Positions 7,518 through 36,614 are shown, counted from the stretch's first letter. The stretch is 64,000 bases of DNA from Williamsoniiplasma somnilux (GCF_002804005.1 NZ_CP024965.1:310001-374000), one strand, 5' to 3'. Notes: generated by a model from the letters alone, not told the origin. A program made the numbers and translations.

Positions 7518-9644
7518 ATGAAAAAGGAAAATAGTAAAGTAAGAAGTAAATTAAAATATGTTTTAATTTTACTTATTCTATTTATTACTATTGCGACAAT
7601 ATCTTTTGTGGTGCTTCAATTATCGCAAAAAAACATAAAAAATATTTCAGAAATAAAAAATGAACTTCAAACCACTTTAAATAATAAACTTAATTCCAAA
7701 TGAGATGTAAATGAACTTCAGAAAGAAGTTGACAACAAATGAGGGACTAAACAAATAACTGTAAAATTTATTTCTACCAGTGATAAAGAAAAAACAAATA
7801 ATTATGTAAATAATTATATGAATATTTTTGAACGGAAAATTCACAATGACACTTATTCATTTATAGGTAATGCTTCTAAAGAAAACAATTTTATATATAG
7901 TGGGTCAATAAATTTAATTCATAGTTATAGTGATATTAATAATAATTTGCAACCAATTACAAAAATAAACGATGACCTTCAAAAAATATTGGATGAAAAA
8001 ACAAATCAAGCTTGAACATTTAGAGAGTTGCAAGCAAGAATTAATAAAGATTATGGTGATGGTTCAATAACCGTTGAAGAGTTAGAAACAACTACTGAAA
8101 ATTTTTTTTCAAAAACGACAGAATGAAAGTTTATTGGTAATGGGACTTTAGAAAACACATTTCCATACGAAGGTTCAACTATTTTAAAACATAAATGAGA
8201 CGATAGTTTGGTTTCATTTATTGATATAACTTTAGTTGAACAAGAATTAAATGAAATACTTCAGTCTAACCATAATTCTGAATGAGATAAATGGAAATTA
8301 GAAGAAGCGATTGTTGAAAGCGGACTTGAGACAAACGGTGGAATTACTGTTGAAAAAATAAGGTCAAAAAAAACTCGTTCTTCAATTGGTGGACCTCAAC
8401 AAACCACATGAGAATTTACTGGTAATGCTAATGAAAACAATGATTTTATGTTTGAAGGTAAAATGGCTCTTGTTCATAATTGGAATGACAAAATTGACAC
8501 AACACAAGATATTTCTGACAAAGAAATAGTTAATAGACTTCAAATAATTTTAAACTTACCTGATTACAAAACTAAATCTTGAAATAAAAATAAATTAGAA
8601 CAAGCAATTGTAGATGCCAAAATTGATATTGCTGGTGGAATAACTGTTGAAGAAGTAGAAACAGTAGAAACTACTCGTTCTTCAATCGGCGGACCACATA
8701 TTACCATTTGAAAATTTATTGGTCATGGAAAAGAAAGTAATAATTGAAAATACTGAGGAACTATAAATTTAAATCATGAATGAAATAATAAAAAAGACAC
8801 AACAAAACCAATTTCTAACATTAAAGTTGAATTAAAAGCGATGGTAAATTCAACAGAATATAAAAACAAAGCTTGAATTCAAGATGATTTGCAAATGGCT
8901 GTTAACAAAAAATGAGCAGGAGCAGGAATCACTGTATCTCAAAAAAATATTTCATCAATTCATTTATTTGAAGAAAAACCACAAGTTACAACTTGAATAT
9001 TTACCGGTAATGGAACTATAAACAATAATTTACCATATAAAGATAGTGTTGAAATAATTCACAATTGAGTTGAATTAATTCCAGAAACTCAAGATATTGA
9101 ATTAATTAAAGATGAACTAACACTAATAATTAATATGGAAAAAGACAAAACTTGATCTAAAATTGAATTGCAAAGTGAAGTCGACATTACATATGGAGTT
9201 GGAGAAATAACAGTGATTGATCAGAATGAAGCAATAAAAGGTCGTTCTTCAGAAATTGTACCAATGTTTAAAACGTGAATATTTAAAGGAAACGATACAG
9301 CCGAAAACCAATTAAAATACTCCGGAGAAACATCAGCAATTCACTCTTGAACAGAAAAAATAGATACATCAATAGATATTTCAACTATTAATGATAAATT
9401 AAATATTTTAGTCAATGATGAAGCTCACAAAGATAAACCCTGAACCTTAGAAGAATTGCAAAATACTGTAAATTCAAAATTTAATGATGGAGAAATTGAG
9501 GTTCAAATTAAAATTAAAAACAGTAATTTTGTTGATAACAATGAACATGATGACACTTACGTTTTTATTGGAAAAGGTAATATTGATAACAGTTATAAAT
9601 ATAAAGGTTTAACAGAAGTAACTCATATATGAACTTTAATTTAA
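7518..9644 (+). CDS. Repeat surface-protein-like protein, short type (cassette A)
   Basis: 708 residues; I do not recognise the family. The start is the ATG 5 nt after AAAGGAAC. Residues about 14-36 (VLILLILFITIATISFVV) form one hydrophobic segment after a basic N-terminus, with no lipobox Cys: a membrane anchor with the rest probably outside. Then come seven units of about 90 residues with the pattern: helix with LQ.ILN, 'W...EL...I', 'GGITVEE', aromatic strand 'TTW.FTGNG', strand ending 'L.H.W'. The last unit stops at VTHIWTLI. Its last four units closely resemble the corresponding late units of the neighbouring 1173-residue protein (for example ESNNWKY and AVNKKW.G.GITVSQK). Almost all Trp codons are TGA. 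The protein has no Cys that I could find. Adhesin or antigen is an inference. Confidence 0.88.
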
Positions 9645-9718
9645 GAAGTGTTAAAAACATTTTGAAATAAAATAAAAAGTTTGTGCGGCGAACTTAATTT
9701 CGCAAAAAGGAGACTAAT

Positions 9719-12700
9719 ATGAAAAAAGATAAACCAATTTTTAAAAAAATGGGCTTATTATTTGTAACGGCTTTACCATTCGCTGGATCAGCAGTCTTTG
9801 CAATTAGCGCAATGAAATATAATGTAAAAAACGATTCAAAGAATATCAGTGTTCTAGAAAATACATTACAAGACATTTTAAATGAAAAAAAAGATTTTCC
9901 TTGAACTAAAACAGAACTTGAGAACAAAATTGTTCAAAAAAAACTTGATATTGATGGAGGAATATCAGTTCAAGAATTAGGATCAAAAAGAACAACAGCA
10001 AAAAATGAACGTGAAATTATTACAACTTGAAAATTCATTGGTAATGCTAAGATAACTAATCCTTACACTTATAATGATGAAATTATCATTGAACACTATC
10101 ACACAGAACCAAGAAATAGTGTTCAAAGCATTATTAAAATTCAAAAAGATTTACAAAAAGTTTTAAATAGTAATCTTGATGAATGAAATAAACAAAATTT
10201 AGAAGCTGCAATTGTTGCGGCAAATATTGACATCACCGGAGGTATTACAGTTGAAAATACTGGAACTTCATTTTTAAGATCATCACAAATTGTTTGAAAA
10301 ACAACATCATGAACCTTTATGGGTAATGGAGTTAAATACTCAGGCAAAACAACACTAAGTCATAAGTGAATAAGTAAAACTGATGCAAGCATAGAGATAG
10401 ATACTATCAAAGATAAATTGAATGATGTTGTAAATAATCGGAAAAAAACTCAATGAACGGTTGATGAATTAAAAACGGCTATTTTCTCGGCTGGAATAGA
10501 TGTTAAAGATGGTTTTGATATTGAAGATATCACACCTAAATCAGAGCAAAATCGTTTAGGTGAAGGAGGGCCTAAAACAACAATCTGAAAATTCACAGGC
10601 AAAGGTTCAGTTAATAACAATTATAAATACAAAAATTCTGTAACAATTAATCATGCATGAAATGATTTACATGATGTTTCTCAACATATTTCCCATGCTA
10701 AAGAACAAATAATTGAAATTTTAAATTCTAGAACTAATAATGCTTGAAACGAAACAGATTTATTAGAAGCATTAACTAGTTCAAAAAATCCGATTGATAT
10801 CAAAGGAGGTTTAACAGTTTCTAAGTTAGAAAATTCTAAAACTCGTTCTTGACAAGGTTCTGATCATATTGATTCATGAAAAATTATAGGAAATGGAAGA
10901 GTTGACAATGATTATAAATATAAAGGGGAATTAACTTTAAAACATGAATGAAGTGATAAATCGGATACGACACGTGAGTTAAGCGAAATTCAACCAACCA
11001 TTGAAAACATTGTTAGTGAGAGAAAAGATTCTTTATGGACTCAATATGAATTGCAAAAAATTATAGATGATTCTGGTTTAGATCCTATCAAAGGAGCAAT
11101 TATTGTTTCTAAGCAAGAAGTTTTTAATGAACGTTTGCATGAAAATTTGAGTGGTTCAGAAACTTGGGTATTTACTGCTCGAGGTAACAAAAACAATAAT
11201 TTTAAATTCAAGGGTTCAATAACTGTCGTTCATAAGTGAAGTACGACAAAAGATAAAACTAAAAGCATTTTAGAAAAAAGTTTAGATCTAAAAACTATTT
11301 TAAATTTAAGAACTAGTAGTTCTTGATCCAAAGAAGAACTAGAACAAGAAATTGTAAAAGCGGGAATTGATTCTCAGGGTGGTATTGAAGTTAAACAAAT
11401 AAATATAGATTTAAATACACGTTCTTGAGGTGGTAGTTGAGAAAAAGCATCTTGAGAATTTAGCGGTAAAGGTGATATAAGTAATGATTGAAAGTACAAT
11501 GGAAGTGTTACTTTAAATCATGAATGAGATAATAGTTATGATACCACTGTTGATATTGGCAATGTAGAATCTTTATTACAAGGAGTTTTGGATTCACGAC
11601 CAAGAAGTGCTTGAACCAAAGAGGAATTAGAGACCGAATTAGTCTCAAAAGGCATTGATGAACAAAATGGGATATTAGTAAAACAAGTGATTCCCAATAT
11701 TGAAAGTCGTTCATCAGTTGGAGCAGAAATCGAAGATACTTGAGAATTCATTGGTAACGGAAATGAATTAAATCAATATTTGTTCAATGGTAAAATTCAA
11801 TTAAGACATCAATGAAGTGATAAAATGGATACCACTGTTGATATTGCTACTATTATTAATGATTTACAAATAATTTTAAATTCTGAAGAATACAATAAAA
11901 AAACTTGAGATAAACCCACATTAGAACAAGCTATTGTGGACGCTAAAATTGATCTTGTAGGAGGAATTACTGTTGAAGAAGTTGACACAGTAAAAAATAT
12001 TCGTTCTTCAACAGGAGGACCACATATTTCTACTTGAAAATTTACTGGTCATGGAAAAGAAAGTAATAATTGAAAATACAAAGGTAGTACAGTATTAGAA
12101 CATAAATGAAATAATACAATTGATACAACAAAGCCGATTTCTGTTATTCAAGATGAGTTAAAAGCAATGGTAAATTCTGCAGAACACAAAAACAAATCTT
12201 GAACTCAAGAAGAATTACAAATGGCTGTTAACAAAAAATGAGTAGGATCTGGAATTACTGTATCTCAAAAAAACACTTCATCAACTCGTTCATTTGTTGA
12301 AACACCAAAAACCACAACTTGAATTTTTACAGGTAATGGAAATATAAATAATGATTTACCATATAATGAAAGTATTGAAATAGTTCACAATTGAATTCAA
12401 ATTACTCCAACGACTAAACACATTGAATCAATTAAAACCGAACTTGAAACAATAATTAATAAAAGAAAAGATAAAACTTGAACTAAAGTTGAATTGCAAA
12501 GTGAAATTGACAATGTATATGGTCTTGGAGAAATAACGATTATTGATTCAAGCGAAATAATTAAAGGTCGTTCTTCAGGAACTGCATCTCTTTCAAAAAA
12601 TTGAACATTTAAAGGAAATGGTACAGATGCAAATCAATTAAAATACTTCGGAGAAACTTTAGCAATTCACTCTTGAACAGAAAAAATAGATACATCAATA

Positions 12701-13240
12701 GATATTTCAACGATTAATGATAAATTAAATATTCTAGTCAATGATGAAGCACATAAAGAAAAAGCTTGAACATTAGCTGATTTGCAAAAAGCTGTTAACA
12801 CACGTTATGGCGTTGGAGAAATTGAGGTTAAAGCGAAAACTAGAAACATTCGTCTTGCTGAGAAAAAAGAACATAGAAATACTTACATTTTTATTGGAAA
12901 GGGTAATATCGGAAATAATTATAAATATAAAGGTTCAACAGAAGTAGTTCATGTTTGAAATCAAAGAATTAAGGACATTTCTATAAATTGATGAAAAGAT
13001 CAGCAAGTATTAACTATTCTTCATGGAATTTTAAATAGTAAACCATTAATTTATAAATGAACGGTAGATGCATTTCAAAAGGAAATTGAAGCAAAATTTC
13101 CACCAATGTCAGGACTTAAGGTAATTAGTGCTACGCGATCAATTGATTTTAAGGAATATATTTATATTCAAGGAATTGCCACAATGGATAATGATTTCAT
13201 TTACTATGGAGATGCACAAATTTGAAGGTATTGATTATAA
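9719..13240 (+). CDS. Repeat surface-protein-like protein, long type (cassette A)
   Basis: 1173 residues, unknown family. The ribosome-binding site is AAAAAGGAG (9705-9713). The N-terminus MKKDKPIFKKMGLLFVTALP starts a basic-plus-hydrophobic segment (about 11-32) ending SAVFAISA, which could be an uncleaved anchor or a signal peptide; there is no lipobox. It is followed by 12 units of about 90 residues, counted by their 'H.W' ends (EHYH, SHKW, NHAW, KHEW, VHKW, NHEW, RHQW, EHKW, VHNW, IHSW, VHVW and a variant last unit ending IWRYWL). Each unit probably has two helices (LQ.ILNSR; WTK.EL..AIV.A.ID) then three strands (GGITVEEV; TTW.FTG.G; YKY.GS..L.H.W). Two other copies of the same length lie downstream. 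Trp is encoded mostly by TGA. No similarity to a characterised protein is evident to me. Confidence 0.9.
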
Positions 13241-13302
13241 AACATTATAAAAATTATTAATATTTAAAACCAAATGATAATTTTGTAAATAATTAAAGAA
13301 AT

Positions 13303-13346
13303 AAAAATTGAAATTGAAAGAATTAAATCTTTCAATTTCAATTTTT
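13303..13346 (+). terminator. Intrinsic terminator of cassette A
   Basis: An 18-bp stem AAAAATTGAAATTGAAAG (13303-13320) pairs with CTTTCAATTTCAATTTTT (13329-13346). The same stem, with small changes, ends cassettes B and C. Confidence 0.88.
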
Positions 13347-13440
13347 AAAATTATTGTTTTATAACGATTTTACAACGGTGTACAGTGTCTTAATAAAAAT
13401 ATTATAAATACCATCAACAATACATAACTATAAATTTTAG

Positions 13441-13579: not shown

Positions 13580-15342
13580 ATGAAAAAGGAAAATATTAAA
13601 TTAAGAAGTGAATTAAAATGTGTTTTGATTTTAATTATTTTATTGACTATTATTTTAAGAATATTTTTTGTTGTGTTTCAATTATCGCAAAGACGCAAAA
13701 AAAATATTTCAAAAATAAAAAATGATTTTCAAAACATTTTAAATAATAAATTTAATTTTAAATGAGATGTAAATGAACTTCAAAAAAAAGTTAATAACAA
13801 TTGAGAGTCCATAAAAATAACTGTAAAATTAATTTTTACTAATAATGAAGAAAAAACAAAAGACTCTGTAAATAATTACATGAGTATTTTAGAACGGCAA
13901 ATTGATAATGGCATTTATTAATTTATAGATAATGTTTTTAAAGAAAATGATTTTATATATAAGGAATCAATAAATTTAATTCATATTTATAATGATATTA
14001 ATAATAATTTGCAACTAATTACAAAAATAAAAGATAATCTTCAGAAAATGTTAATAAAAAAAATTAAACTTGAAAAAACTTGAAAATCGGAAAATTTGTA
14101 AACAAGAATTAATAAAAGTTATGTATTTTATTATTTAATAAATGTTGAAGAATTAGATATAAATACTGAATTTTTTTTCAAAAAAATAGAAATTTACTGA
14201 TAATAAAACTTTAGAAAACACATTTGCATATAAAAATTCGCCTGTTTTAAAACACAAATTAAATGAAATATTTCAATCTAATAATAACTCTTAATGAGGT
14301 AAAAATAAATTAGAGCCAAAATTGCAAATGATGGCATTTATATTATATTAGAGATAATTTTTGAAACAATAAAAACTATTCGTTCTTCAATCAGTAAGTA
14401 ACAAGTTACTATTTAAAAATTTGCTGATAATAAAAAAGTAGTGATTAAAAAAACTAAGAAACTACAACTTTAAATTATGAGTTAAATAATAAAAAAAATT
14501 TAACAAAACAATTTTTAAAATTCAAGTTGAATTAAAAGCAATAATAAATTCGGGAAAACACAAAAACAAAACTTGAATTCAAGACTTTCTAAAAATGACT
14601 ATTGACAAAAAAAGAACGAGATTTGAAATTATTGCATCTTAAAAAATTTTTTATCAATTTGTTTATTTAAAAAAACCATTAATCATGACATGAGGAGTGT
14701 TTATTGATAATGAAATTATAAACATTGATTTATCATATAAAAATAGTGTTTAAATAGTTTCCAAAAAAAATTTAATTAATTCCAAAAGCTCAAAATATTA
14801 AATTAACAAAAAATAAATTTATATTAATAATTAATATTAAACAAGATATAACTTTATTTAAAATTTAATTGCAAAGTTAGCTTGATACTACACATAAAAT
14901 TAGAGAAATAATATTTATTGATCAAAACGAAGTAATGAAATTTTGTTTTTCAGAAATTATACTACTATTCAAAACCTGAACATTTAAAGAAAACGATAAA
15001 GCCAAAAATAATTAAAATATTTCAAAAAAGCATCATCAGTTTGTCATTGAATAAAAAAACAAATAAATCAATAGATATTTTAACTATTAATGATAAATTA
15101 AACATTTTAGTCAATGATAAAAATCACAAAAATAAACCTTAAATTTTAGAAGAGTTGGAAAATACCATAAATTCAAAATTTAATGACGGAGAAATTGAGG
15201 GTCAAGTTAAAACTAAAAACAGTAATTTTGTTGATAACAATGAACATGATGATATTTGCGTTTTTATCGAAAAGGTTAATATTGAAACAGTTATAAATAT
15301 AAATGTTTAAAAGAAGTAACTCATATACGAACCTTTATTTAA
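13580..15342 (+). pseudogene. Decayed short-type repeat gene (cassette B)
   Basis: A copy of the 708-codon gene of cassette A that has lost its frame. The N-terminus is still readable (MKKENIKLRSELKCVLIL) and keeps its ribosome-binding site, but TAA at 13919-13921 stops translation after 113 codons, and many later stops follow. Several are former TGA Trp codons turned into TAA by one G-to-A change, for example 14414-14416 (TGA in copy A at 8709-8711) and 15140-15142 (TGA at 9441-9443). One repeat unit's worth of sequence is missing compared with copy A, around 14270-14340. Similarity continues to the former stop region (TAA 15340-15342). Mutations are strongly toward A+T, as expected for unselected DNA here. 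Confidence 0.9.
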
Positions 15343-15416
15343 AAAGTGTTAAAAACATTTTTAAATAAAATAAAAAGTTTGTGCGGCGAATTTAATTTCG
15401 CAAAAAGGAGATTAAT

Positions 15417-18400
15417 ATGAAAAAAAATAAACCAACTTTTAAAAAAATGGGCTTATTATTTGTAACGGCTTTACCATTTGCTGGATCAGCAGTCTTTGCA
15501 ATTAGCGCAATGAATTATAATGTAAAAAACGATTCAAAGAATATCAGTGTTCTAGAAAATACATTACAAGACATTTTAAGTGAAAAAAAAGATTTTTCTT
15601 GAACTAAAACCGAACTTGAGAACAAAATTGCTCAAAAAAAACTTGATATTGATGGTGGAATATCAGTTCAAGAATTAGGATCAAAAAGAACAACAGCAAA
15701 AAATGAACGTGAAATTATTACAACTTGAAAATTCATTGGTAATGCTAAGATAACTAATCCTTACACTTATAATGGCGAAATTATCATTGAACACTATCAC
15801 ACAGAACCAAAAATTAGTGTTCAAAGCATTATCAAAATTCAAAAAGATTTACAAAAAGTTTTAAATAGTAGTCTTGATGAATGAAATAAACAAAATTTAG
15901 AAGCTGCAATTGTTGCAGCAAATATTGATATCATTGGAGGTATTACAGTTGAAAATGCTGGAACTTCATTTTTAAGATCATCACAAATTGTTTGAAAAAC
16001 AACATCATGAACCTTTATAGGTAATGGAGTTAAATATTCAGGTAAAACAACGTTAAGTCATAAGTGAATAAGTAAAACTGATGCAAGCATTGAGATAGAT
16101 ACTATTAAAGATAAATTGGAAGACGTTGTAAATAATCGAAAAAAAACTCAATGAACGGTTGATGAATTAAAAACGGCTATTTTCTCGGCTGGAATAGATG
16201 TTAAAGATGGTTTTGATATTGAAGATATCACACCTAAATCAGAGCAAAATCGTTTGGGTGAAGGAGGTCCTAAAACAACAATCTGAAAATTCACAGGTAA
16301 AGGCTCAGTAAATAACAATTATAAATACAAAAATTCTGTAACAATCAATCATGCATGAAGTGATTTACATGATGTTTCTCAGCACATTTTTCATGCAAAA
16401 GCTCAAATAATTGAAATTTTAAATTCTAGAACTAATAATGCTTGAAATGAAACGGATTTATTAGAAGCATTAACTAGTTCAGAAAATGCAATTGATATCA
16501 AAGGAGGTTTAACGGTTACTAAATTAGAAAATCCTAAAACTCGTTCTTGACAAGGCTCTGATCATATTGATTCATGAAAATTTACAGGACATGGAAAAGC
16601 TGACAATGATTATAAATACAAAGGTGAATTAACTTTAAAGCATGAATGAAGTGATAAATTGGATACGACTCGTGAGTTAAGCGAAATTCAACCAACCATT
16701 GAAAACATTGTTAGTGAGAGAAAAGATTCTTCATGGACTCAATATGAATTACAAAAAGTTATAGATGATTCTGGTTTAGATCCTATCAAAGGAGCAATTA
16801 TTGTTTCTAAGCAAGAAACTTTTAATGAACGTTTGTATGAAAATATAAGTGATTCAGAAACTTGAGTATTTACTGCTCGAGGTAACAAAAACAATAATTT
16901 TAAATTCAATAATTCAATAACTGTTGTTCATAACTGAAGTACAACAAAAGATAAAACCAAAAGCATTTTAGAAAAAAGTTTAGACTTGCAAACTATTTTA
17001 AATTTAAGAACTAATAGCTCTTGATCTAAAGAAGAACTAGAACAAGAAATTGTAAAGGCGGGAATTGATTCTCAGGGTGGCATTGAAGTTAAACAAATAA
17101 ATATAAATTTAAATACACGTTCTTGAGGTGGGGGTTGAGAAAAAGCATCTTGAGAATTTAGCGGTAAAGGTGATATAAGTAATGATTGAAAGTACAATGG
17201 AAGTGTTACTTTAAATCATGAATGAGATAATAGTTATGATACCACTGTTGATATTGACAATGTAGAATCTTTATTACAAGGAATTTTAGATTCACGACCA
17301 AGAAGCGCTTGAACCAAAGAGGAATTAGAGACCGAATTAGTTTCAAAAGGCATTGATGAACAGAATGGGATATTAGTAAAACAAGTGATTCCCAATATTG
17401 AAAATCGTTCATCAGTTGGAGCAGAAATTGAAGATACTTGAGAATTTATCGGTAACGGAAATGAATTAAATCAATATTTGTTTAATGGTAAAATTCAATT
17501 AAAACACAAATGGAGTAATAAAATGGATACCACTGTTGACATCGCCGCTGCTATTAATGATCTACAAATAGTTTTAAATTCTGAAGAATACAATAAAAAA
17601 ACTTGAGATAAACCCACATTAGAACAAGCTATTGTGGACGCTAAAATTGATCTTGTAGGAGGAATTACTGTTGAAGAAATTGACACAGTAAAAACTATTC
17701 GTTCTTCAACAGGAGGACCACATATTTCTACTTGAAAATTTACTGGTCATGGAAAAGAAAGTAATAATTGAAAATACAAAGGCAGTACAATATTGGAACA
17801 TAAATGAAATAATAAAATTGATACAACAAAGCCGATTTCTGTTATTCAAGATGAGTTAAAAGCAATGGTAAATTCTGCAGAACACAAAAATAAACCTTGA
17901 ATTCAAGAAGAATTACAAATGGCTGTTAACAAAAAATGAGTAGGAGCTGGAATTACTGTATCTCAAAAAAGTACTCCAACAACTCGTTCATTTGTTGAAA
18001 CACCAAAAACAACAACTTGAATTTTTACAGGTAATGGAAATATAAATAATGATTTACCATATAATGAAAGTATTGAGATAGTTCACAATTGAATTCAAAT
18101 TACTCCAACGACTAAACATATTGAATCAATTAAAACCGAACTTGAAACAATAATTAATAAAAGAAAAGATAAAACTTGAACTAAAGTTGAATTGCAAAGT
18201 GAAATTGACAATGTATATGGTCTTGGAGAAATAACGATTATTGATTCAAGTGAAATAATTAAAGGTCGTTCTTCAGGAACTGCATCTCTTTCAAAAAATT
18301 GAACATTTAAAGGAAATGGTACAGATGCAAACCAATTAAAATACTTCGGAGAAACATTAGCAATTCACTCTTGAATAGAAAAAATAGATACATCAATAGA

Positions 18401-18938
18401 TATTTCAACCATTAATGATAAATTAAATATTCTAGTCAATGATGAAGCACATAAAGAAAAAGCTTGAACATTAGCTGATTTGCAAAAAGCTGTTAACACA
18501 CGTTATGGTGTTGGAGAAATTGAGGTTAAAGCGAAAACTAGAAACACTCGTCTTGCTGAGAAAAAAGAATATAAGAACACTTATATTTTTATCGGAAAGG
18601 GTAATATCGAAAACAATTATAAATATAAAGGTTCAACAGAGGTAGTTCATATTTGAAATCAAAGAGTTAAGGATATTTCTATAAATTGACCAAAAGATCA
18701 ACAAGTATGAAATATTCTTAATGCAATTTTAAATAGTAAACCATCAAGTTATAAATGGACGGCAAATGCATTTCAAAAGGAAATTGATGCAAAATTTCCA
18801 CCAATGTCAGGACTTAAGGCAATTTGAGTTCTTCGATTACCTGATTATAAAGAATATATCCATATTGAAGGAATTGCCACAATCGATAATGATTTTATCT
18901 ATTATGGAGCTGCACAGATTTGAAGAACTTGAATGTAA
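15417..18938 (+). CDS. Repeat surface-protein-like protein, long type (cassette B)
   Basis: 1173 residues, the same length as its copies at 9719 and 20616. The start is ATG after AAAAAGGAG. Same hydrophobic N-terminus and 12 units. Against copy A I count 5 differences in the first 65 residues but 23 in the last 86, so the final unit is much more diverged. Shared differences from copy A (MNYNVKN, KIAQKK, LNSSLDE, LEDVVNN) group copies B and C, while QETFNERLYEN is shared with the cassette D protein, suggesting exchange. Its upstream partner is dead, so it must be translated independently. Unknown function; probably surface exposed. Confidence 0.9.
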
Positions 18939-23600: not shown

Positions 23601-24137
23601 ATTTCAACCATTAATGATAAATTAAATATTCTAGTCAATGATGAAGCACATAAAGAAAAAGCTTGAACATTAGCTGATTTGCAAAAAGCTGTTAACACAC
23701 GTTATGGTGTTGGAGAAATTGAGGTTAAAGCGAAAACTAGAAACACACGTCTTGCTGAGAAAAAAGAATATAAGAATACTTATATTTTTATCGGAAAGGG
23801 TAATATCGGAAACAATTATAAATATAAAGGTTCAACAGAAATTGTTCATGTTTGAAATCAAAGAATTAAGGACATTTCTATAAAATGATGAGAAGATCAA
23901 CGAGCATGAAATATTCTTAATGGAATTTTAAATAGTAAACCATTAAGCTATAGATGGACCGCAGATGCGTTTCAAAAAGAAATTGATGCAAAATTTCCAC
24001 CAATGGCAGGACTTAAGGTAACTGATGCCTATCGTTTACTTGATTTAAAAGAATGAATCTTTATTTCAGGACTTGCTACAATTGATAATGATTTTATTTA
24101 TCGTGGGGATTTATCGATTTGAAGATATTGAATGTAA
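20616..24137 (+). CDS. Repeat surface-protein-like protein, long type (cassette C)
   Basis: 1173 residues, third copy. N-terminus MKKDKPAFKKIGLLFVTALP, anchor segment about residues 11-32, then 12 units. Most units are nearly the same as in copies A and B, but the last unit (about residues 1088-1173) is again distinct, ending FIYRGDLSIWRYWM. Some stretches follow copy A rather than B (KNPIDIKG, KIIGNG, QEVFNERLHEN), so the three genes are mosaics. Trp is mainly TGA. The upstream partner is a pseudogene. Unknown function; surface protein by inference. Confidence 0.9.
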
Positions 24138-24334: not shown

Positions 24335-24361
24335 TTGGTTTTTTTTTTTTTTTTGTATAAT
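24335..24361 (+). promoter_or_regulatory. Promoter-like element with a T16 spacer
   Basis: A run of 16 T (24339-24354) ends one base before a perfect TATAAT (24356-24361). TTGGTT (24335-24340) could act as a -35 box with a 15-bp spacer made almost only of T. A change in tract length would move the -35 relative to the -10, the arrangement known for phase-variable lipoprotein promoters in mycoplasmas. A second TATAAT follows at 24437, and the gene starts at 24574. Function is inferred. Confidence 0.5.
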
Positions 24362-24573: not shown

Positions 24574-26448
24574 ATGAGTAACGAAAACAATGAAAAAAAG
24601 AGTAAGTTTAAAGGACTTTTACTTTTACTTCTTTTATTCATACCTATCGCAACAACAACGTTTGTAGTGTTTCAATTATCACAAAGGAATATAAAAAATA
24701 TTTTAGAAATAAAAAATGAACTTCAAGAGATTTTAGATAAAAAGCTTAATCAAAAATGACAAATTGAAGAGTTACAAAAAGAAATTGATAAAAAATGAGG
24801 GACGGGACAAATAACTGTAAAATTTGTTCCTATTATTGAATATGGAAAAAATGAAGCATTTAATAATGTTTCGAATATTTCTTTTCATAAACCCTATAAT
24901 GATATCTATACATTTATTGGTAATGCTTCTAGAGAAAACGATTTTACATACAATGGATCAATAAACTTAATTCATAGTTATAGTGACATTAATGCTAAGA
25001 TAAGACCAATTTCAGATATTGAAACTTATCTCCAACGAATCTTAGATTCAAGAAAAGGTAAAGTTTGATCTAAAACCGAACTTGAACAAGAGGTTGTCAA
25101 TAGGGGATTGGATGTTAAGGGTGGAATTTTGGTTGAAGAAATTAATGTTAAAAACAATCGTTCTTCAGAGACCAAATCGCGAAACACGACTTGAAAATTT
25201 ATAGGTCAAGCCGATGATAACAACGATTTTCATTTTAATGCTTCCATTTCTCTAGAACATTCTTGAAATAACAAAATTGACACTACTGAAAATATTCGTA
25301 ATAAAACAACAATTACCAAACTTCAAAATCTTTTAGATTCTAAAAATTATAAAAATAAAACCTGAACAGCTGAACTTTTAAAAAATGAAATTGTTAAACA
25401 AGATATTGATGTTTCCCTAGAATTTGGAGGTATAACAGTTCAAGAAGTTGAAACCACTTTAGAAACTCGTTCTTTTACTGGCGGTCAAAAAGTTACAACT
25501 TGAAAATTTACTGGTCATGGAAATTTAGATAATAACGGAAGATATTATGGTAATGTGACTTTAAATCATGAATGAAATGACACAAAAGACACAACACAAG
25601 AAATTAATGTTATTAAAGATGAGTTAATTGATCTAGTAAATTCAATAGAATACAAAAATAAAAATTGAACTAAAGATGATTTACAAGATGCTATTAATGC
25701 AAAATGGGTTGGAGCTGGAATAACTGTTGAAGAAAAACTTGTTTCACAAACTCGTAGTTGGGATGAAAAACAACAAACAACTATATGAACATTTACAGGT
25801 AATGGAGATGTTACAAATCAACATCCTTATAAAAACACTGTTGACATAAAACATAATTGGGTTGAATTAATATCAACTACAAAAAATATTGAAGAAATTA
25901 AATCAGAATTAGTAAATATCTTAAACGAAAAAAAAGAAAATGCTTGATCCCAAGAAGAATTGCAAACAAAAGTTGATGAACTATATGGGACTAAAGAAAT
26001 TACAGTTATTGATCCAAATGAAAATAATGTAATCCACTATTCTATGAAAATCAAAAGTGGAAAATCTTGAATTTTCAGAGGCAATGGGGAAAAAGACAGC
26101 ACAACTAATAAGTTTAAATATTATGGTGAAGAATCAATTACTCATGAATGATTTGAAACTATATCTAACACAATAAGTGTTAAGAATTTAAAAGATGATC
26201 TACAAATATTACTTGATTCACAGTCAAATAAACAACATCCTTGAGATATACTAAAATTACAAAATGCTCTTGATAATAAATATGGAGCTAATGCAATTAT
26301 TGTAAACATTTCTCAACAAAAAATTCCAAATGAATCAGGTGATCATTATGATAAATACAAATTTACTGGTAAAAGTATAGGAATTAATGGTCATCAATAT
26401 ATTGATGAGATTGAATTAATTCATATTTGAAATCCAAGTATAAAATAA
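24574..26448 (+). CDS. Repeat surface-protein-like protein, short type (cassette D)
   Basis: 624 residues, unknown family. An in-frame ATG at 24559 lies within the ribosome-binding region, so the ATG at 24574 (after GAAAGGAAC) is chosen. N-terminus MSNENNEKKSKFKG, then a Leu-rich hydrophobic segment (about residues 14-36), no lipobox. Six units follow, ending 'LIHIWNPSIK'. It is the diverged relative of the cassette A short protein, one unit shorter. Residues around 320-450 are almost the same as a part of the next protein (shared RYYGNVTLNHEWND, TRSWDEKQQTTIWTFTGNGD). Upstream of the long-type gene, it completes a fourth cassette with both members open. Confidence 0.88.
25518..25960 (+). repeat. 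Tract nearly identical to 28875-29300
   Basis: Within the short cassette D gene, the stretch coding from RYYGNVTLNHEWND to TTKNIEEIKSEL matches 28875-29300 in the next gene almost base for base, far more than the rest of the two genes. This suggests recent conversion or duplication between neighbours. The ends are approximate. Confidence 0.75.
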
Positions 26449-26511: not shown

Positions 26512-29500
26512 ATGAAAAACAACAAACCAAGTTTAAAAAAAATTGGACTACTATTTGTTGCTACTTTACCGGTTGCTGGATCGGCTGCTTTAGCAATGAG
26601 TTCGATGAATCATAATATAAAAGATGATTCAAAAAATGGTTCAAAAAGTATTGGTGATTTAAGAACTGCATTAGAAACAATTTTATCTGAACGAACAAAT
26701 AAGAAATGGTCTAAAGTCGAACTTGAAACTAAAATTACTGAACAAAAATTTGATATTGAAGGTGGAATTACAGTCCAAGAGTTAGGTTCAAAAAGAACTA
26801 CTGCTAAAAACGGTCACGAAATTATTACCACTTGAAAATTTTTAGGTAATGCCAAGGTTACAAACGCTTTTACATATAAAGGTGAAATTATTATTAAACA
26901 TTCTCGTATAGAATCTGAAAATAATACTGAAAGTATTGTTAAAATTCAAAAAGATCTTCAACAAATTTTAAATACCGAAATTAAAGAATGAAGCCAAAAT
27001 GATTTAAAGGATAAGATTGATGAAAAATTTGGAGTTGGAGAAATTACTGTTGAATTGGACAAGTCAACTTTATCTCAAAGATCAGCTAATTTCGAATGAA
27101 AAAATAGCTCATGAAAATTTATTGGAAATGGAGTTAAATTTAAAGATCAAACAACACTAAAACATCAATGAATTAATGAAATTGACGGGAGTCAAGATAT
27201 AAAGAAAATTGAATCAGAATTAACTGAAGTAATAACAAAACGTAAACATAATGAATGAACTGTTGAAACATTAAAATCAGCAATTTCTTCTGCTGGAATT
27301 GATGTAAAAGAGGGATTTAATGTTGAAAAGACTATTTCTAAAACAATTGAAACTCGTTTAGGAAATGGCGGACAACAAAAAACCACTTGAAGAATTACTG
27401 GTAATGGAAGTGTGGATAATAATTATAAATATAATGGTTCTGTGTTGATTGAACATATATGAAATAATTTAACAGATAATTCTAAACACATTTCTTATGT
27501 TAAAGAAAAAATAGTTGATGTTTTAAATTCTAAAGTTAATAACGCTTGAAACGAAACAGATTTATTAGAAGCGTTAACTAGTTCAGAAGATGCAATTGAT
27601 ATTAAAGGAGGTTTAACAGTTTCTAAGTTAGAAAATTCTAAAACTCGTTCTTGACAAGGTTCTGATCATATTGATTCATGAAAAATTATAGGAAACGGAA
27701 GAGCTGACAATGATTATAAATATAAAGGGGAATTAACTTTAAAACATGAATGAAGTGATAAATTGGATACGACTCGTGAGTTAAGCGAAATTCAACAAAC
27801 CATTGAAAACATTGTTAGTGAGAGAAAAGATTCTTCATGGACTCAACATGAATTGCAAAAAGTTATAGATGATTCTGATTTAGATCCTATCAAAGGAGCA
27901 ATTATTGTTTCTAAGCAAGAAACTTTTAATGAACGTTTGTATGAAAATGTAAGTGGTTCAGAAACTTGAGTATTTACTGCTAGAGGTACTAAATTTAATA
28001 ATTTTAAATTTAAGGGTTCAACTACAATTAAGCATACATGAAATACAACGAAAGATAATACCAAAAGTATTTTAGAAATAAGTTTACAATTACAGGATAT
28101 TCTAAATTCAAAATTTAAAAATGTTTGAACTCCAGAAGAGCTTGAACAAGAAATTGTTGCTAAAGGTATTGATTTAACTGGCGGCATTGAAGTTAAAGAA
28201 CATAATTCAGAACAAAAAACTCGTTCATGAAATGGTGGTTGAGAAAAAACTTCATTTACTTTTACGGGTAAAGGGGCAATTAACAATGACTGAAAATATA
28301 ATGAAAGTGTGACTTTAACTCAAGAATGGGATAGCAGTTATGATAGCAGTATAAACATCGAAAAAGTAAGTTACGCTTTACAGCGTATATTAGATAGACG
28401 ATCATTGCAATCTTGAACTCAAGAAGAATTACAACTCGCAATTGATGAAGCTAAAATTGATCCTGTTGGTGCAGGTGGTATTATTGTAAAACAGGTTTTA
28501 CCCGAAATAGAAACTCGTTCTTCAACTGGTGAAATAGATCAAGATATTTGAGAATTTATTGGTAACGGAAACGAAATGAATGAATTCATGTGAAATAACA
28601 AAGTTACTTTAACTCACGTATGAGATAACACAGTCGATACTACTAAAGATATTAATAACAATGAAACAATTATCGAACTTCAAAATCTTTTAGATTCTGA
28701 AAGCTATAAATATAGACCTTGAACACCACAACTTCTACAAGAAGAAATTGTTAAACGAGATATTGATGTTGCTTCAGAACTTGGAGGAATTACCGTTGAA
28801 GAAATAGAAACGGTTATAGAAACTCGCTTGTCTGAAGGAAGTCCCAAAGTTACTACTTGAATATTTATTGGTAATGGAAATTCAGATAATGACGGAAGAT
28901 ATTATGGTAATGTGACTTTAAATCATGAATGAAATGATATAAAAGACACAACACAAGAAATTAATGTTATTAAAGATGAGTTAACTATGCTAGTAAATTC
29001 GACAAAATACAAAAATAAAAAATGAATTAAAGATGATCTGCAAGATGCCGTTAATGCAAAATGGGTTGGAGCTGGAATTACTGTTGAAGAAAAACTTGTT
29101 CCACAAACTCGTAGTTGGGATGAAAAACAACAAACAACTATATGAACATTTACAGGTAATGGGGATGTTACGAATAAATACCCTTATAAAAATACTGTTG
29201 ACATAGAACATAGTTGAATTGAATTAATTCCAACCACAAAAAATATTGAAGAAATTAAATCAGAATTAGAAAATATTTTAAATGAAAGAAAAGATAATGC
29301 TTGACTTCAAACAGAATTACAAACAAAAGTTGATGAAAAATATGGAATTGGAGAAATTACAGTTATTGATTCAGATGCAGTAAAAGCTAAAAATCGTTCT
29401 TGAGGTTTAGAAAACAAAATTAAGAACTGAATATTCAAAGGTATTGGAGAAAATGAAAGCATAACAAATCCACATCTATATTACGGTGAAACAACTCTTG

Positions 29501-29811
29501 TTCACAAGTGAGAACAAAAAGCAGATACATCAATTGATATAGAGGTCATTAAAAATGAATTAAATCGTCTATTAACATCTGATGGTCATTTAAACAAAGA
29601 ATGATCAATAACAGATTTACAACGAGCCGTAGATAGAAAATATGGTGCCGGTGAAATCAAAGTTTCAAGATGAATTTCTAGAAATCGAAACATTTTAAGA
29701 GATGCGTCATTAAGTCATAGTGATAAATATACTTTTACAGGTCAAGGCAATGTTAATAACGATTATAAATATAAAAATTCAATAGACTTGCGTCATACTT
29801 ATTATAATTAA
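26512..29811 (+). CDS. Repeat surface-protein-like protein, long type (cassette D)
   Basis: 1099 residues, unknown family. The start ATG at 26512 follows GAAAGGA; an upstream in-frame TTG at 26494 lies before the ribosome-binding site and is rejected. N-terminus MKNNKPSLKKIGLLFVATLP and a hydrophobic segment to about residue 32, then 11 units ending LRHTYYN. Most of it is clearly diverged from the 1173-residue proteins, except for a block at about 27523-27990 (NNAWNETDLLEALTSS to SETWVFTAR) that is nearly identical to them, and a block at 28875-29300 nearly identical to its own upstream neighbour. It is therefore a mosaic. TGA is the main Trp codon. The gap to the upstream gene is 63 bp, consistent with one transcript. 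Confidence 0.9.
27523..27990 (+). repeat. Gene-conversion-like block shared with cassettes A-C
   Basis: About 470 bp within the cassette D long gene match the equivalent parts of the three 1173-codon genes (for example around 16430-16880 and 21625-22080) almost exactly, while sequence on both sides is much more diverged. The sharp change in similarity is what a conversion tract would leave. It shares QETFNERLYEN with copy B. Ends judged by eye. Confidence 0.8.
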
Positions 29812-30117
29812 TTAACTTAGTAATTAATTTATAAATGGTCCTAAAAACAAATATTGAATTGATATTTTTTCAAAATTGTTTTTGTTAAAAAATATTCGTG
29901 TTGGCAATGCTTGTTGGCAATTCGATACTTAGCAAAAAGAAATTGATTCTGAATTTCTTCATATTTAGATTCAAAGATTGTGAAAACATGGTAAGAAAGC
30001 AAATATGCATAAATCATTAATTAGAGTTAATGAAACAACATAAAATATATATTAATAAATTAAAGGCTTAAGGCTATAATATTTTTTTAATAAATAAAAT
30101 GAAAGGTGATTAACGTT
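29812..30117 (+). other. Gap between repeat genes, no gene seen
   Basis: 306 bp. It has a 37-codon open stretch near 29880-29990 (starting FVKKYSCWQC) without a start or ribosome-binding site, and a short direct repeat TTGGCAAT (two copies, near 29905 and 29918). It may be debris of an older gene, but I recognise nothing. TATAAT at 30075-30080 could be the -10 box of the next gene. Confidence 0.4.
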
Positions 30118-33100
30118 TTGCCAATAAAAAAATTTAAAAAAATATCTTTATTATTTTTAACAACAATTCCAATAACTTCTTCTATATTTTTGGCAACTAG
30201 TTTCAAAAGTGCTAGTAGGCAAAAAACGATTTCAAAAATAATGTCTAATAAATCAAGAATAGAACAAATTTTAAGCAGAAAAATAAATTCTGATTGAAAC
30301 GAAGAAGATTTGTTTGTAGAAATGATAAAAGCAGGTTTTTTAGAAAATCAAATTGAAAAAATTGAAAAAATTTCTTCTAAAAACAATAAAACAAACTCAA
30401 ATTTATTTAGTACTTCAAATTGAAAAATAACTTTAAATTCAAAAAATGGTGATAATAAAAACGAAATTATAAATTTAATTCATAGTTGAAATAATTCAAA
30501 TTCATTACCAGTAAACTTGTCTAATATCAGAGAAGATGTATATGCAATTCTTCTTACAAAAGTATATTCAGCTTGAAGTCAAGAAGAATTACAGTTAGCA
30601 ATTGACAAAAAATATGAAGCCAATAATATTAAAGTTGAAAAAGTTATTTCAAATAATTCATATTCATCTAATTTTGGATGAAAAAAAGATACATGAAATT
30701 TTTTAGCTATAAGTAATAAATTTGAAAGCGAAATGTCTATAGAACATGAATGATTAGAAGAAATTAAAACTTTAATTGACATTAATAAAATTAAAAATAA
30801 TTTGCAAAAAATTTTAAATACCAAAGAGAATTCTAATTGAACTGAACAAGACTTAGAAGAAACGATTGTTATTGAAGGTATTGATTTAGCAAAAGGAATA
30901 ACAGTTAAAAAAGAAAGCAATAAAAATGTAAATGGTGAAAATATTACTACTTGAATTTTTACTGGTAACGGAACTGTTAATAATAATTTTAAATATAATA
31001 AATTTACAAGATTAGAGCATCATTGAAAAGAAAAAGTATTTGAAGTTAATAATATTTATAAAATCAAAAATCAATTAGAACAAATTTTGAACAAAAGAGT
31101 CAATTCTGTTTGAACTCAAGCAGAATTGCAACTTGCAATTGATGAAGCTAAATTTGATGAAAAAGGTGCAATAATTGTTGAACTACAAGAGAAAATTTCA
31201 AATCGTTCTTGATCGATGGGATGAAAAAAATCTTTTTGGTCATTTAAAAGTATCGACAGCGAAAAAAGTAAATTTGAAGGTATTATCACTTTGGAACACG
31301 AATATTTGTCAAGTACAAATCAATTTAAAAATATAAGCATTATTGAAAATGATTTGCAAAAATTATTAAATAGTAGAACCAAAATAAATTGAACAAAAGC
31401 AGATTTAGAGCGAGAAATCGTTAGAAATAACCTAGATATTAAAGGCGGAATTACCGTTGAGAAATTGGATTATATTGAAAGTCGTTCTTGAGTTGGAGAT
31501 GATAAAACTGATTCTTGAAAAATAATAGGAAATGGAAATTTAAATAATAGTTTTTCTTATAATGAGTCAATAATTTTAATTCATAAATGAAACAACAAAT
31601 ATGAAAACACAAAAAAAATTACATCAATTAAAACATATTTGCAAAATGTTTTGGATTCAAAAACAAATAGAGCATGAACTAAAGCAACATTAGAACAAGC
31701 AATTGTGAATGCAAATATTGATGTGTCTGGAGGAGTTATTGTTGAAGAAATTGCAAACAATAGTCGTTCCTGAAGCGGTGGACTTGGCCAAACCAAATGA
31801 AATTTTACAGGTAAAGGAAGTTTAAATTCTCCTTACAAATACAAAGGTACAATTTCTTTAACACACAAATGAAACGATAAGAAAGATACTTCAATTAATA
31901 TTGAAACTATTAATAATGAAATTAGTAATTTATTAAAACTTAATGAATTAATTGAAAAAGAATGAGATTTAGTGTTGTTACAATCTAAAATTGATGAAAA
32001 ATACGGTGTTGGAGAAATTACAGTTTCTTTAGATAAAACAAATCAAAAACAAGTGGGAGAAATTATTAAAGTTTCGAATACTTATTTATTCAAAGGTAAT
32101 GGAAAAATTGATAATGTTTACAAATACAATCAGTCAACCACTTTAATTCATAATTGAGAAAAACCAGCAAAATCATTAATTTCCATTAAAACTATTGAAA
32201 CTCAACTGAAAAATATTTTAAATGAAAAGCAAGATTCTAACTGAGATATCAATGAATTACAAATGGCTATTGATGCTTTAAAATTAGATTTCGCTAAAGG
32301 AATTACTGTTGAAGTAATAAAAAATAACAAAAACACTCGTTCTTCAGAAACAATTAATGTTGAGAGACAATATAAATTTGTTGGTAACGGAACATTATTG
32401 AATGAATTTAAATATAATGAAAGTATTACATTATTACATAAATGAAACTACAAAAAAGATAATTCTCAACATATTTCTAAGATTGAAAAAGATTTACAAA
32501 AAATTTTGGATTCAAGAAAAAGTTCAGATTGAACCAAATCTGAACTTGAAGCTGAAATTGTTAAACAAAAGGTTGATGTTGAAAGAGCTATAGTTGTAGA
32601 AAATATTAAATCTAGAATTCGTTCTTCACAAACACTGAATTATAAGAGTAATTGAAATTTTATTGGTAAAGGTGATCAAACCAATAATTATAAATATAAC
32701 GAAAATATAATTCTTGTGCATTCTTGATTTAAAAAAGAAGACACAACAAGTTCAATATCTAATATTCAATCTCAATTACAAAAAATACTTGACGAGAAAA
32801 AAACTTCTGAATGAAATGTTGGTGATTTACAAAATAGAGTTGATAAAGATTATGGAAGTGGAGAAATAACCGTTGGTTCAACACGAAATATCACCCCTTA
32901 TTCATCTTCGATTAAAAATAATCAAAGTCGATTTACTTTTATAGGTAATGGATCATCTTTAAATGATTTTCAATACAATAGTTCTATTTCATTAACACAA
33001 AAATGAACAACTAAAGTAGATACTACTAAAAATATTAATGATTATTGATCACAAATTGAGAGTGCAATTAGAAGCATTAAGTTCAAAGTTAACACCTCTA

Positions 33101-33294
33101 CTGCTGAGGTTATAAACACTGTACTTTCATCACTTGGTGAAGACTCATCAGGATTAAAAATTAAAATTAGTATGAATATAGTTGGCGGAAACACGACTCA
33201 TATATATATTGAGCTTATTGGTTTAGGAAATATAAATAATAATTATAAATTTTATAATACAACAGGAACAAAAAGTTTGTACATTTTGCATTAA
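30118..33294 (+). CDS. Repeat surface-protein-like protein, divergent (TTG start)
   Basis: 1058 residues, unknown family. No ATG fits: the ribosome-binding site GAAAGGTG (30101-30108) is followed after about 10 nt by TTG (30118), giving MPIKKFKKISLLFLTTIPIT, a basic start and a hydrophobic segment of the same type as the other long proteins. A GTG at 30106 lies inside the ribosome-binding site and is less likely. About ten standard units follow, ending with L.H.W-like strands (LIHSW, IEHEW, LEHHW and so on), then a shorter atypical end (GLKIKISMNIVGG, ending SLYILH). It has no short-type partner upstream. It resembles the next gene more than cassettes A-D, especially in its first unit (IEKIEK after an 'EDL' helix). 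Confidence 0.88.
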
Positions 33295-33386
33295 TAATAT
33301 TTTTTCCAATTAAATTTTAAAATTATATTTTTTCATTAAATATTTTATGAAATATTTTTATTTGTTGAACAATAATTACAAAAATC

Positions 33387-33403
33387 AAAAAAAAAAAAAA
33401 AAA
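33387..33403 (+). repeat. Poly-A tract (A17) before the last repeat gene
   Basis: Seventeen A in the 137-bp gap 33295-33431, 28 bp before the ATG of the next gene. TTGTTGAAC lies about 25 bp upstream and could include a -35 box. Length change of the tract could affect transcription or translation initiation. Confidence 0.6.
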
Positions 33404-33431
33404 TCAAAATAAATTTTAAGGAAAAGTAAAA

Positions 33432-36400
33432 ATGAAAAATAATAAAAAAACTCTTAAACATTTAACGTTATTATTATTGGCAATGATACCACTAGTATCT
33501 TTGACCATTTTAACTTTAAGTTTTAAAGAATATTCTAAACAAAATAGTTTTTTCTTAGATGACGCACAACAAATAAAAACTGTTTTGGATGAAAAAAATT
33601 ATGATGACTGAACTGAGACAGATTTATTGAACGCACTTGTCAATGCTGGTATTTCAAAAAAAAGGATTTTAAAAATTGAAAAAATTGAAAATAGTATTTT
33701 AACCAATCAAGAAAATTTAAAAGGTAATAGTAAATGAGGAATAACTTTAAAAACAAGAATTGAAGGTGGAAATAATAAATTTATTACCTTAAATCACTCT
33801 TGAAACAAAGCAAATAATAAACACAAAAATTTATCTTATTTAAGAAAGGAAATTAATGAATTATTGCTTTCAAAAGTTTACTTCGGTTGAACAAAACAAG
33901 AATTACAAGAAAAAATTAATCAAAAATATAAAGTTAACAACATTAAAGTTGCAAAAGAAAATATGATTACAAAAAATTTTGCAAGAACGAAATGAAAGAA
34001 TAACATTTGAAAATTCACTGGAATAAGCAAAAATTTTAAAGGCGAAATCAAATTAACTCATGAATGATTAGAATACGAAAAACACTTATTAAATATTTCA
34101 ACAATTCAAAATCAACTTCAAAACATACTAAATGCAAAAACAGAAGCACAGTGAACAAAACAAGAATTAGAGAATATTATAATAAAAGAAAATTTAGATA
34201 ATTTTGGCGGAATAATTGCTGAAAAAGAACAAACAGAAATTAGTGATAACCAAATTATTACTAATTGAAAATTTATAGGTAAAGGATTAAAAGATAACAA
34301 TTTTACATATAATGGTTTTATAAAATTAAAACATTGTTTAAAAGTGCATAAACAGCAAAAATTAAACATTCGCAAATTAAGAAAAGATTTACAAATTATT
34401 TTAGACAGAAAAATTGATTCAAAATGAACCCAAAATGAATTACAAACCGCAATTGATGAAGCCAATTTTGATGTTAAAGGAAGTATTGTTGTTAAACGAA
34501 AAAATCTTGATTTTAATCGTTCATGAAAAATTGAGTGAACTTATGAATCTTGAGATTTTCAAGCTTTAGGCAATGAGAATAATAACTTTAAATACAATGG
34601 TTTAGTCACTTTAAATCACAAATTTTTTTTAAGTAATAATAATGTTAAAGATATAAAAAATATTAAAAATGATTTACAAAATATTTTAAATTCTAGAATT
34701 CATTATGCCTGAACAAATTTAGAATTAGAATCTGCAATTATAAAAAGTAATTTAGATATTAGAGGTGGCATTAAAGTTGAAAAAGCAACTTTTAAGAATT
34801 CTCGTTCTTGATTCGGTGATGAACAAATTAATCAATGAAATTTTATTGGAAAAGCCAATGATAAAAATGCTTTTAGCTATAATGGAGCAATAACTTTAAA
34901 TCACCAATGGAGCAATAAAAAAGATTCAACCAAAAATATTGCTAAGGTTAGAAAAAGATTGCAAGATCTTTTAAATTCAAGAACTAATTCTGTTTGAACA
35001 AAAACAGAATTAGAATCAGCAATTGTTGAAAAAGGTATTGATGTCATAGGCGGAATTACCGTTGAAGAAATAGCCAATAAAAACCGTGCAGCAAGTGGTG
35101 GAAAACATAAAAGTGGTTGAACATTTATTGGTAATGGATCACTACACTCACCATATAAATATAATGATTCAACATCTTTAATTCACAAATGAAATGATAA
35201 AAAAGATATTTCAATTGACATTTCAAACATTAGTGAAGAAATTAATAAATTACTTGCTTTAAACTCTTTAACTAATGATGATTGAAATTTAAATGTTTTA
35301 CAAGCCAAACTTGATAAAAAATATGGATTTGGAGAAATGACTATATCGTTGCATACAACAGAGCAAGAAAAGAATGACAAATTTATCAATATAATTAATC
35401 GATATTCTATCAAAGGAAATGGATCTATTGATAACGATTTTGAATATAAAAATTCTATAATAATATCTCATATTTGAAAAAAACCTTTTAAATATTTACT
35501 TTCAATTAAAGATTTAGCACCAGAACTTCAAGATTTAATCAATACAAAATTTGACTCTAAATGAAATATCAATGACTTACAAAAAGCTATTAATGAATTA
35601 AACTTAGATTTAAAAAATGGAATTACAGTTGTCCCGATCGAAACAATAAATAATCGTTCATGAGAAAACGTGCAAAACCAAAATAAATACAAATTTATTG
35701 GTAATGGGACCTTAAAAAATGATTTTAAATATAATGGGGAAATTATTTTGTCACAAAATTGAAGCTATTATAAAGATGTTAGTATTGACATTAATAAAAT
35801 TAATTCAAAACTTCAAGATATTTTAAATTCAAGAACTAATTCAAGTTGAACTAAATCAGAAATTGAAAATGAAATTGTTAAACATAATATTGATGTTGAA
35901 GGGGGAATATCCGTTAAAGAAGTTATGATTAAGTCACGATCATCAGCCTTTTTAAATTATAAAAAAAGTTGAGAATTCATCGCTAATGGTGATGAAAACA
36001 ATGTTTTTAAATATAAAAATAAAATAATTCTTACTCATTCATGAACTCAAAAAGAAGATACAAGCATTAATATTTCACACATTGCAAATGACTTGCAAAA
36101 ATTAATAGATGAAAAACCAACTTCTGCTTGAAGTCTTAACAATTTGCAATATAGAGTTAATAACAAATATGGCTGAAATCAAATAACTGTTCTTGAATCA
36201 AAAATAATTACTCAGTATTCTTTTGATGCTGAAATGCATAAACAAAATTTTACTTTTATCGGTAGTGGTAATATTTCTAACGACAAAAAATATAATGGAT
36301 CAATAAATTTAACCCAAACTTGATATAAAAAAACCAATACAACTCAAAGAATAACGGTTGTAAATCATGAAATACGAAATGTTGTTTTTTCAAGAAAAGA

Positions 36401-36614
36401 TATACCTTGAACTAAAAAAGAATTAGAACAAGCAATTGTGGATGCTGGTATTGATATTGCTGGTGGAATTACCGTTAAATCACATGGTTCGCAAATTGGA
36501 TGACCAGGACAACCGTCATTTACTGAATGAACAATTACTGGCAATGGTAAATTTGAAAATGCTTGAAAATACACTGGTGAACTTTTTATAAAACACTGAT
36601 GAACCAAGTATTAA
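33432..36614 (+). CDS. Repeat surface-protein-like protein, divergent (last of the array)
   Basis: 1060 residues, unknown family. ATG after TAAGGAAAAG. N-terminus MKNNKKTLKHLTLLLLAMIP with a hydrophobic segment to about residue 31, no lipobox. Eleven units follow, with ends such as LNHSW, LTHEW, LKHCL, LNHKF and IKHWW. Individual unit ends have drifted (one contains a Cys, rare in this family). Closest to the preceding gene in the first unit and in several later ones (KWNDKKD.SI.I..I..EI..LL). No short-type partner. The gene ends 46 bp before the promoter of the hydrolase gene, and I see no strong terminator between. Confidence 0.88.

Follow-up and report, generated by a model that had tools for sequence, protein, structure and literature searches.

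A 64-kb stretch of the Williamsoniiplasma somnilux chromosome (positions 310001-374000 of a genome of 868,413 bases in one contig; the whole stretch is called the window below) carries an array of genes for proteins built from tandem copies of one repeat unit. The reading that we consider probable, which comes from computation only, is that the array codes for long surface stalk proteins of one family, anchored at the N-terminus and partly switchable. The array fills nearly half of the window (7518-36611, all on the + strand) with eight open and two decayed genes (translation table 4), and the proposal of the first-pass annotation that these genes share one plan was borne out by the open reading frames (ORFs) in table 4 and by a hidden Markov model (HMM) of the unit. 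The eight array genes are not eight independent inventions, because much of the array arose by tandem copying of a single cassette of two genes. Smaller and larger genes take turns along the array: both are intact in cassette 1, only the larger is intact in cassettes 2 and 3, where the smaller has decayed, and both are intact but diverged in cassette 4; genes 7 and 8 form an additional pair. The features, in window coordinates and with protein lengths in amino acids (aa), are the following:

7518-9641, +: cassette 1 smaller gene; 708 aa, 7 units, strong N-terminal hydrophobic anchor (ORF, HMM)
9719-13237, +: cassette 1 larger gene; 1173 aa, 12 units, the last unit showing the greatest divergence among copies (ORF, HMM)
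13302-13347, +: 20-bp perfect hairpin 3' of the cassette 1 larger gene, a probable terminator; kept in cassettes 2 and 3
about 13580-15339, +: cassette 2 smaller gene, decayed by frameshifts and an internal deletion
15417-18935, +: cassette 2 larger gene; 1173 aa, 12 units (ORF, HMM)
about 19308-20538, +: cassette 3 smaller gene, decayed by stops, frameshifts and a deletion
20616-24134, +: cassette 3 larger gene; 1173 aa, 12 units (ORF, HMM)
24339-24354, +: T16 homopolymer ~220 bp upstream of the cassette 4 operon, a putative contingency tract
24574-26445, +: cassette 4 smaller gene; 624 aa counted from the start used, 6 units (ORF, HMM)
26512-29808, +: cassette 4 larger gene; 1099 aa, 11 units, with a mosaic tract in common with cassettes 1-3
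30106-33291, +: seventh gene; 1062 aa, 10 strong units and 1 weak C-terminal unit (ORF, HMM)
33387-33403, +: A17 homopolymer, its last base ~28 bp ahead of the start codon of the eighth gene, a putative contingency tract
33432-36611, +: eighth gene; 1060 aa, 11 units (ORF, HMM)
6771-7145, +: sepF, the left border of the array and a conserved neighbour in relatives
36690-37664, +: alpha/beta hydrolase (abhydrolase), the right border of the array and a conserved neighbour in relatives

The repeat unit and its range

The unit HMM was seeded with six units of one protein and iterated until it settled at 87 columns. Nearly all unit matches in the eight genes have E-values of 1e-9 to 1e-28, and the numbers of units found are, in gene order, 7, 12, 12, 12, 6, 11, 11 (10 strong, 1 weak) and 11. 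The unit, with the consensus ISEIKNELQKILNSKKNKKWTKEELQKAIDKKKIDGKGGITVEEIESKNTRSSEGKEKKQTWKFTGNGNIENDFKYKGSITLKHKWN, has a mean length of 86 residues and a start-to-start spacing of ~95 residues, which leaves a linker of roughly 10 residues. Mean pairwise identity among units is 32%, so that the units within one protein are mostly not recent copies of each other.

Scans of the array proteins against Pfam (six proteins scanned) and NCBIfam returned sub-threshold noise only, with no family match and no recognised catalytic or binding domain, and the earlier description of the family as unrecognised therefore stands. Neither these scans nor a profile search of the PDB nor Foldseek produced a strong match of the unit to a characterised domain; a calmodulin relation in the PDB search (E 0.05-0.2) was judged to be due to chance, and matches to NodZ, Acb2, MBD and other Pfam families in highly repetitive relatives were ignored as repeat-inflated, no stretch passing alone. 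For a single unit, AlphaFold2 predicts a short strand, two helices and three strands (mean predicted local distance difference test score, pLDDT, 88.8; predicted template modelling score, pTM, 0.78), and for three consecutive units it predicts three alpha/beta beads (mean pLDDT 85.6, pTM 0.50) whose mutual arrangement is of low confidence. Foldseek comparison of the unit models with the PDB and with viral models gave nothing at E 0.001 or better. With VIA-align, in which Z < 8 may reflect merely a common arrangement, the single unit matched gp25/TssE baseplate chains (Z 5.0-5.8) and Rib domains (Z 4.3-4.9), and the top row for the three-unit model was tandem Rib domains (Z 5.3, root-mean-square deviation 6.2, 150 aligned), all below the common-fold level.

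A profile search detected the unit in 12 of 320 genomes of the order in the GTDB taxonomy, all of them in one family and in 4 of 50 genera; among 395 genomes drawn from the class, none outside that family had it, which agrees with the expectation of a lineage-specific family. One genome of the same genus is without the unit. Phage, plasmid and viral-contig collections gave no match with a single family member as query. The array had been presented as a locus of 7.5-36.6 kb in the window; the genes there are real, but the family is not confined to that interval, since further unit-gene members or clusters lie at about 60-63, 270-282, 706-707, 790-793 and 803-810 kb of the same genome, which contains at least 89 scored unit copies in 868 kb. 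The unit is thus a real, previously unnamed domain family within a known kind of system, the variable repeat-built surface proteins of mollicutes, and the array is not a new type of mechanism. What merits attention is the density of the array, the unit itself and the clean separation of tract lengths described below; an unnamed 86-residue domain, tied to PARCEL and Spiralin proteins, joins the surface vocabulary of insect-associated mollicutes.

Predicted membrane anchor and surface location

Each of the eight array proteins begins with 4-6 Lys/Arg residues followed by one hydrophobic segment (Kyte-Doolittle 19-mer mean 1.8-3.1), and no other segment exceeds 1.4; judged by sequence, an N-terminal export signal is present in all eight. 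A lipobox is absent from all eight, seven being free of cysteine and one having a single cysteine far from the N-terminus, and for want of an N-terminal cysteine the array proteins are not filed as lipoproteins. This is the N-terminal plan that the first reading of the window had described. One Peptidase_S26 (signal peptidase I) profile found no match in the genome and matched 12 of 14 control genomes, which suggests that the array proteins are probably held in the membrane by an uncleaved N-terminal anchor. The basic residues ahead of the hydrophobic segment favour an N-in, C-out orientation, and an outward topology is well supported as a prediction.

The link to the cell surface comes from paralogues and relatives. 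In three paralogues (L013, L014 and L015), a lipobox signal peptide is followed by 2-4 units and then by a DUF285 (PARCEL, PF03382) tract at the C-terminus, and NCBIfam called the signal peptides of two lipobox paralogues, above cut-off, LP_plasma and Vmc-like, which are mollicute lipoprotein signals. PF03382 matches occur in five paralogues and in none of six array proteins scanned. A paralogue in the second cluster (L011:11230-14781) combines the array-type anchor without lipobox with a DUF285 tip, a domain order that ties the array type to the surface type. Lipobox proteins of relatives combine the unit with PARCEL tips, with other repeats, with uncharacterised C-terminal domains or with Spiralin domains. 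The proposed surface location is, on these grounds, well supported, and the array proteins may also face the host. Separately, two very large lipoproteins of one relative (G003, L017; 1781 and 1885 aa) combine Spiralin-type repeats with the unit, and such multi-Spiralin proteins outside Spiroplasma seem worth describing.

Duplication, recombination and candidate switches

The array has grown by recent tandem duplication of what we predict to be a two-gene operon. The three 1173-aa proteins are of equal length to the codon and 91-92% identical, with whole-gene nonsynonymous divergence (dN) of 0.036-0.044, synonymous divergence (dS) of 0.13-0.14 and dN/dS of ~0.25-0.35, a low ratio that points to purifying selection on each copy. 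Hairpin DNA is retained 3' of the larger genes in cassettes 1-3 (folding was done for cassette 1), suggesting that a cassette, smaller gene first and larger gene second, probably forms a single transcription unit. Directly 5' of the ribosome-binding site of each larger gene (window 9681-9715 and the equivalents in cassettes 2-3) there is a conserved dyad, GTGCGGCGAA...TTTCGCAAA, which may affect translation of that gene.

Mosaic tracts indicate recombination between array copies. Residues ~356-505 of the cassette 4 larger protein are encoded by DNA with 88-97% nucleotide identity to the larger genes of cassettes 1-3; outside this tract, identity to the same copies is mostly 56-79%, and over the whole alignment it is about 70%. 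A similar tract links the smaller gene of cassette 4 with the larger gene of that cassette.

In four relatives, sepF and the abhydrolase gene are neighbours, with ileS close downstream and no unit genes between; what separates sepF from the abhydrolase gene is a ribonucleotide-reductase-like gene in two genomes of the same genus, and elsewhere other genes lacking the unit or a spacer of 63 bases. With the gap thus free of units in relatives, the simplest account of the array is that it was inserted or expanded in this lineage, interrupting a conserved sepF-abhydrolase-ileS neighbourhood. The ribonucleotide-reductase-like genes at the array site of the two same-genus relatives (L037:3610-6090 and L038:9921-12437) were named from sequence, not by family search. 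The neighbouring abhydrolase and ATP-binding cassette (ABC) transporter genes were considered as partners of the array and rejected, because relatives keep the abhydrolase, and two of them also the ABC genes, without the array.

Divergence among the copies is concentrated at the C-terminus. The last unit of the three 1173-aa proteins (residues 1087-1173) is 69-74% identical with dN of 0.15-0.21, and the other units are 86-99% identical with dN of 0.005-0.07. The excess of amino-acid changes in the last unit is significant for each pair (binomial p < 1e-9; the pairs are not independent), and relative to silent changes, amino-acid changes are commoner there than in the rest (Fisher p 0.002, 0.05 and 0.0008). 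Genes 7 and 8 likewise differ most at their C-termini. Diversifying selection on the terminal unit is possible on this pattern.

Exactly eight A/T tracts of at least 14 bases occur genome-wide, all of them 16-17 long; in 167 kb of the genome, A/T runs comprise three of length 9, none of 10-15 and eight of 16-17, which are the same eight. Half of them lie no more than 350 bp upstream of unit genes (p 2e-7), two in the array (24339 and 33387) and two before family genes elsewhere; of the remaining four, one each precedes a gene for a DUF285 protein, a lipoprotein, a DNA cytosine methyltransferase and an ABC transporter. In relatives, too, the long tracts form a length class of their own (15-17), and 7 of 11 tracts (one being G9) lie within 350 bp upstream of unit genes. 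A length class apart from the background, together with the position before surface or modification genes, is the pattern of contingency loci, and homopolymer tracts have been described ahead of PARCEL lipoprotein genes in M. capricolum (PMC2996958). The tracts resemble mollicute slipped-strand switches, which suggests putative on/off control of some unit genes. If the switching is real, it would hint that contingency loci for surface proteins are maintained also by mollicutes whose hosts lack adaptive immunity, which bears on what drives such variation.

Among the tracts outside the unit loci, one T16 tract stands ahead of the gene for a lipobox protein of 669 aa (L041:2979-5081, ~74.5-76.6 kb). 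Another T16 tract (L042:3097, ~402.6 kb) lies ~34 bp upstream of the DNA cytosine methyltransferase gene, next to a 933-aa gene, and this locus is possibly a phase-variable modification system. An A16 tract (L043:3650, ~576.6 kb) stands ~115 bp ahead of a gene for an ABC transporter of 896 aa, after which comes a lipoprotein-like gene.

Taken as a mechanism, the single hydrophobic segment, probably never cleaved, would fix each protein in the one cell membrane, and the 6-12 small alpha/beta beads would reach outward as a stalk with the C-terminal unit as its distal tip. The genes would be transcribed as two-gene cassettes, the smaller before the larger, with a hairpin terminator after the larger gene in cassettes 1-3; the cassette would have been duplicated in tandem inside a conserved housekeeping neighbourhood, its copies recombining and so swapping segments, and the tip unit changing by drift or under selection for difference. 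The 16-17-base homopolymers before some family genes would probably switch expression through slipped-strand mispairing, giving varying mixes of stalks across the cell population. Such stalks would most likely serve to make contact with an insect host or to shield the cell. Only tentatively, and with the balance leaning against it, would we go further and view the array as a combinatorial surface-diversification locus of an insect symbiont, in which tandem cassettes with a conserved stalk and a fast-changing tip, built from a domain family limited to a single mollicute family, serve, through gene conversion and 16-base switches, to match or evade particular insect hosts. Species of Williamsoniiplasma have been reported as prevalent and partly host-specific associates of fireflies (PMC13380324).

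Known systems and competing readings

Among characterised systems, the closest in kind are mollicute phase-variable surface proteins of the Vlp, Vmc and PARCEL-lipoprotein kind, which share with the array an export signal and a 5' contingency tract (for two array genes or operons only) but have a lipobox cysteine that is found in the unit paralogues and relatives and not in the array proteins. The PARCEL lipoproteins of the M. mycoides cluster have been shown to be expressed surface proteins (PMC2996958) and are, like those of the array, repeat-built; however, PARCEL is a 25-residue amphipathic repeat, whereas the unit, an alpha/beta domain of 86 residues, is unrelated to it in sequence. The array proteins have neither PARCEL nor lipobox, and in the same genome the unit precedes PARCEL tracts in paralogues. 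In Spiralin domain lipoproteins (PF05215) of two relatives, Spiralin repeats and the unit occur within the same large proteins; a relation between the two domains was rejected, profile-profile comparison with hhalign giving it a probability of 0.6% and the unit having no PF05215 match. Rib/alpha-like streptococcal proteins also form a rod of tandem domains of ~80-100 residues, but they have no sequence match to the unit, and their structural Z of 4.3-5.3 is too low to tell relatives from chains that merely have a common arrangement. Sortase attaches Rib proteins to a cell wall, which mollicutes do not have. The ScARP adhesins resemble the proposed array proteins in presenting a surface-exposed repeat region in an insect-associated mollicute, and the ScARP3d repeats of Spiroplasma citri bind insect cells and are implicated in entry (PMC3485318). 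ScARPs, however, have N-terminal repeats and a C-terminal membrane anchor and are plasmid-borne, in contrast to the N-terminal anchor and chromosomal genes of the array, and tblastn found no sequence link in a plasmid collection that is not confirmed to include the pSci plasmids.

ScARP3d is a precedent for host adhesion, but shielding or evasion fits the array equally. A coat of this kind, a variable brush against phage, immune factors or protozoa that has no specific host ligand, is a serious contender, if a less probable one than the reading of switchable surface stalks: it would suit the many long, near-identical proteins and the lack of a recognised catalytic or binding domain in those scanned, and a variable tip with switching would serve evasion as well as adhesion. 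Against it, the paralogues have a dedicated domain at the C-terminus, for example PARCEL, an arrangement that looks suited to presenting a tip more than to adding bulk. We regard as unlikely, although possible for some array genes, a mostly silent archive, in which one or a few genes are expressed and decaying others donate sequence through gene conversion. The two decayed copies, the mosaic tracts and the lack of a homopolymer in front of cassettes 1-3 would agree with it, but all three copies of 1173 codons have remained intact, with no difference in length, and their dN/dS argues for purifying selection on each. Several observations also weigh against the surface-stalk reading. A tract precedes only two of the eight array genes or operons, so that most of the array need not be phase-variable. 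The last-unit dN/dS is below 1, and its nucleotide divergence (15-20%) is matched by that of the intergenic DNA directly downstream (10-20%); the tip may therefore simply fall outside the homogenised block, and weaker homogenisation at the 3' end, not selection, may explain its divergence. Finally, Peptidase_S26 is absent by one profile, and mollicutes may have signal peptidase activity that goes unrecognised.

Two further readings are poorly supported. That the proteins are intracellular or membrane scaffolds facing the cytoplasm, perhaps tied to the division genes ftsZ and sepF, is very improbable: the array directly follows the division cluster, and a positive N-terminus with one hydrophobic segment and no lipobox would suit such proteins, but relatives keep the cluster without the array, the unit paralogues are lipobox lipoproteins, and the basic residues argue for the outward orientation. 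Least probable of all is prophage or plasmid cargo, such as tail-fibre-like genes that entered behind sepF. The array is inserted at a site where sister genomes lack it, and the unit model is weakly similar to gp25-like baseplate chains; yet the flanking genes scanned include no integrase, relaxase or structural phage gene, the mobile-element collections searched gave no match to the family member used as query, and members are scattered over the chromosome.

In the division cluster itself, the gene between mraW and ftsZ, at the position of FtsA (window 4269-5612), matches nothing in Pfam and shares only ~30% identity with its counterparts by position, compared with 62-75% for ftsZ.

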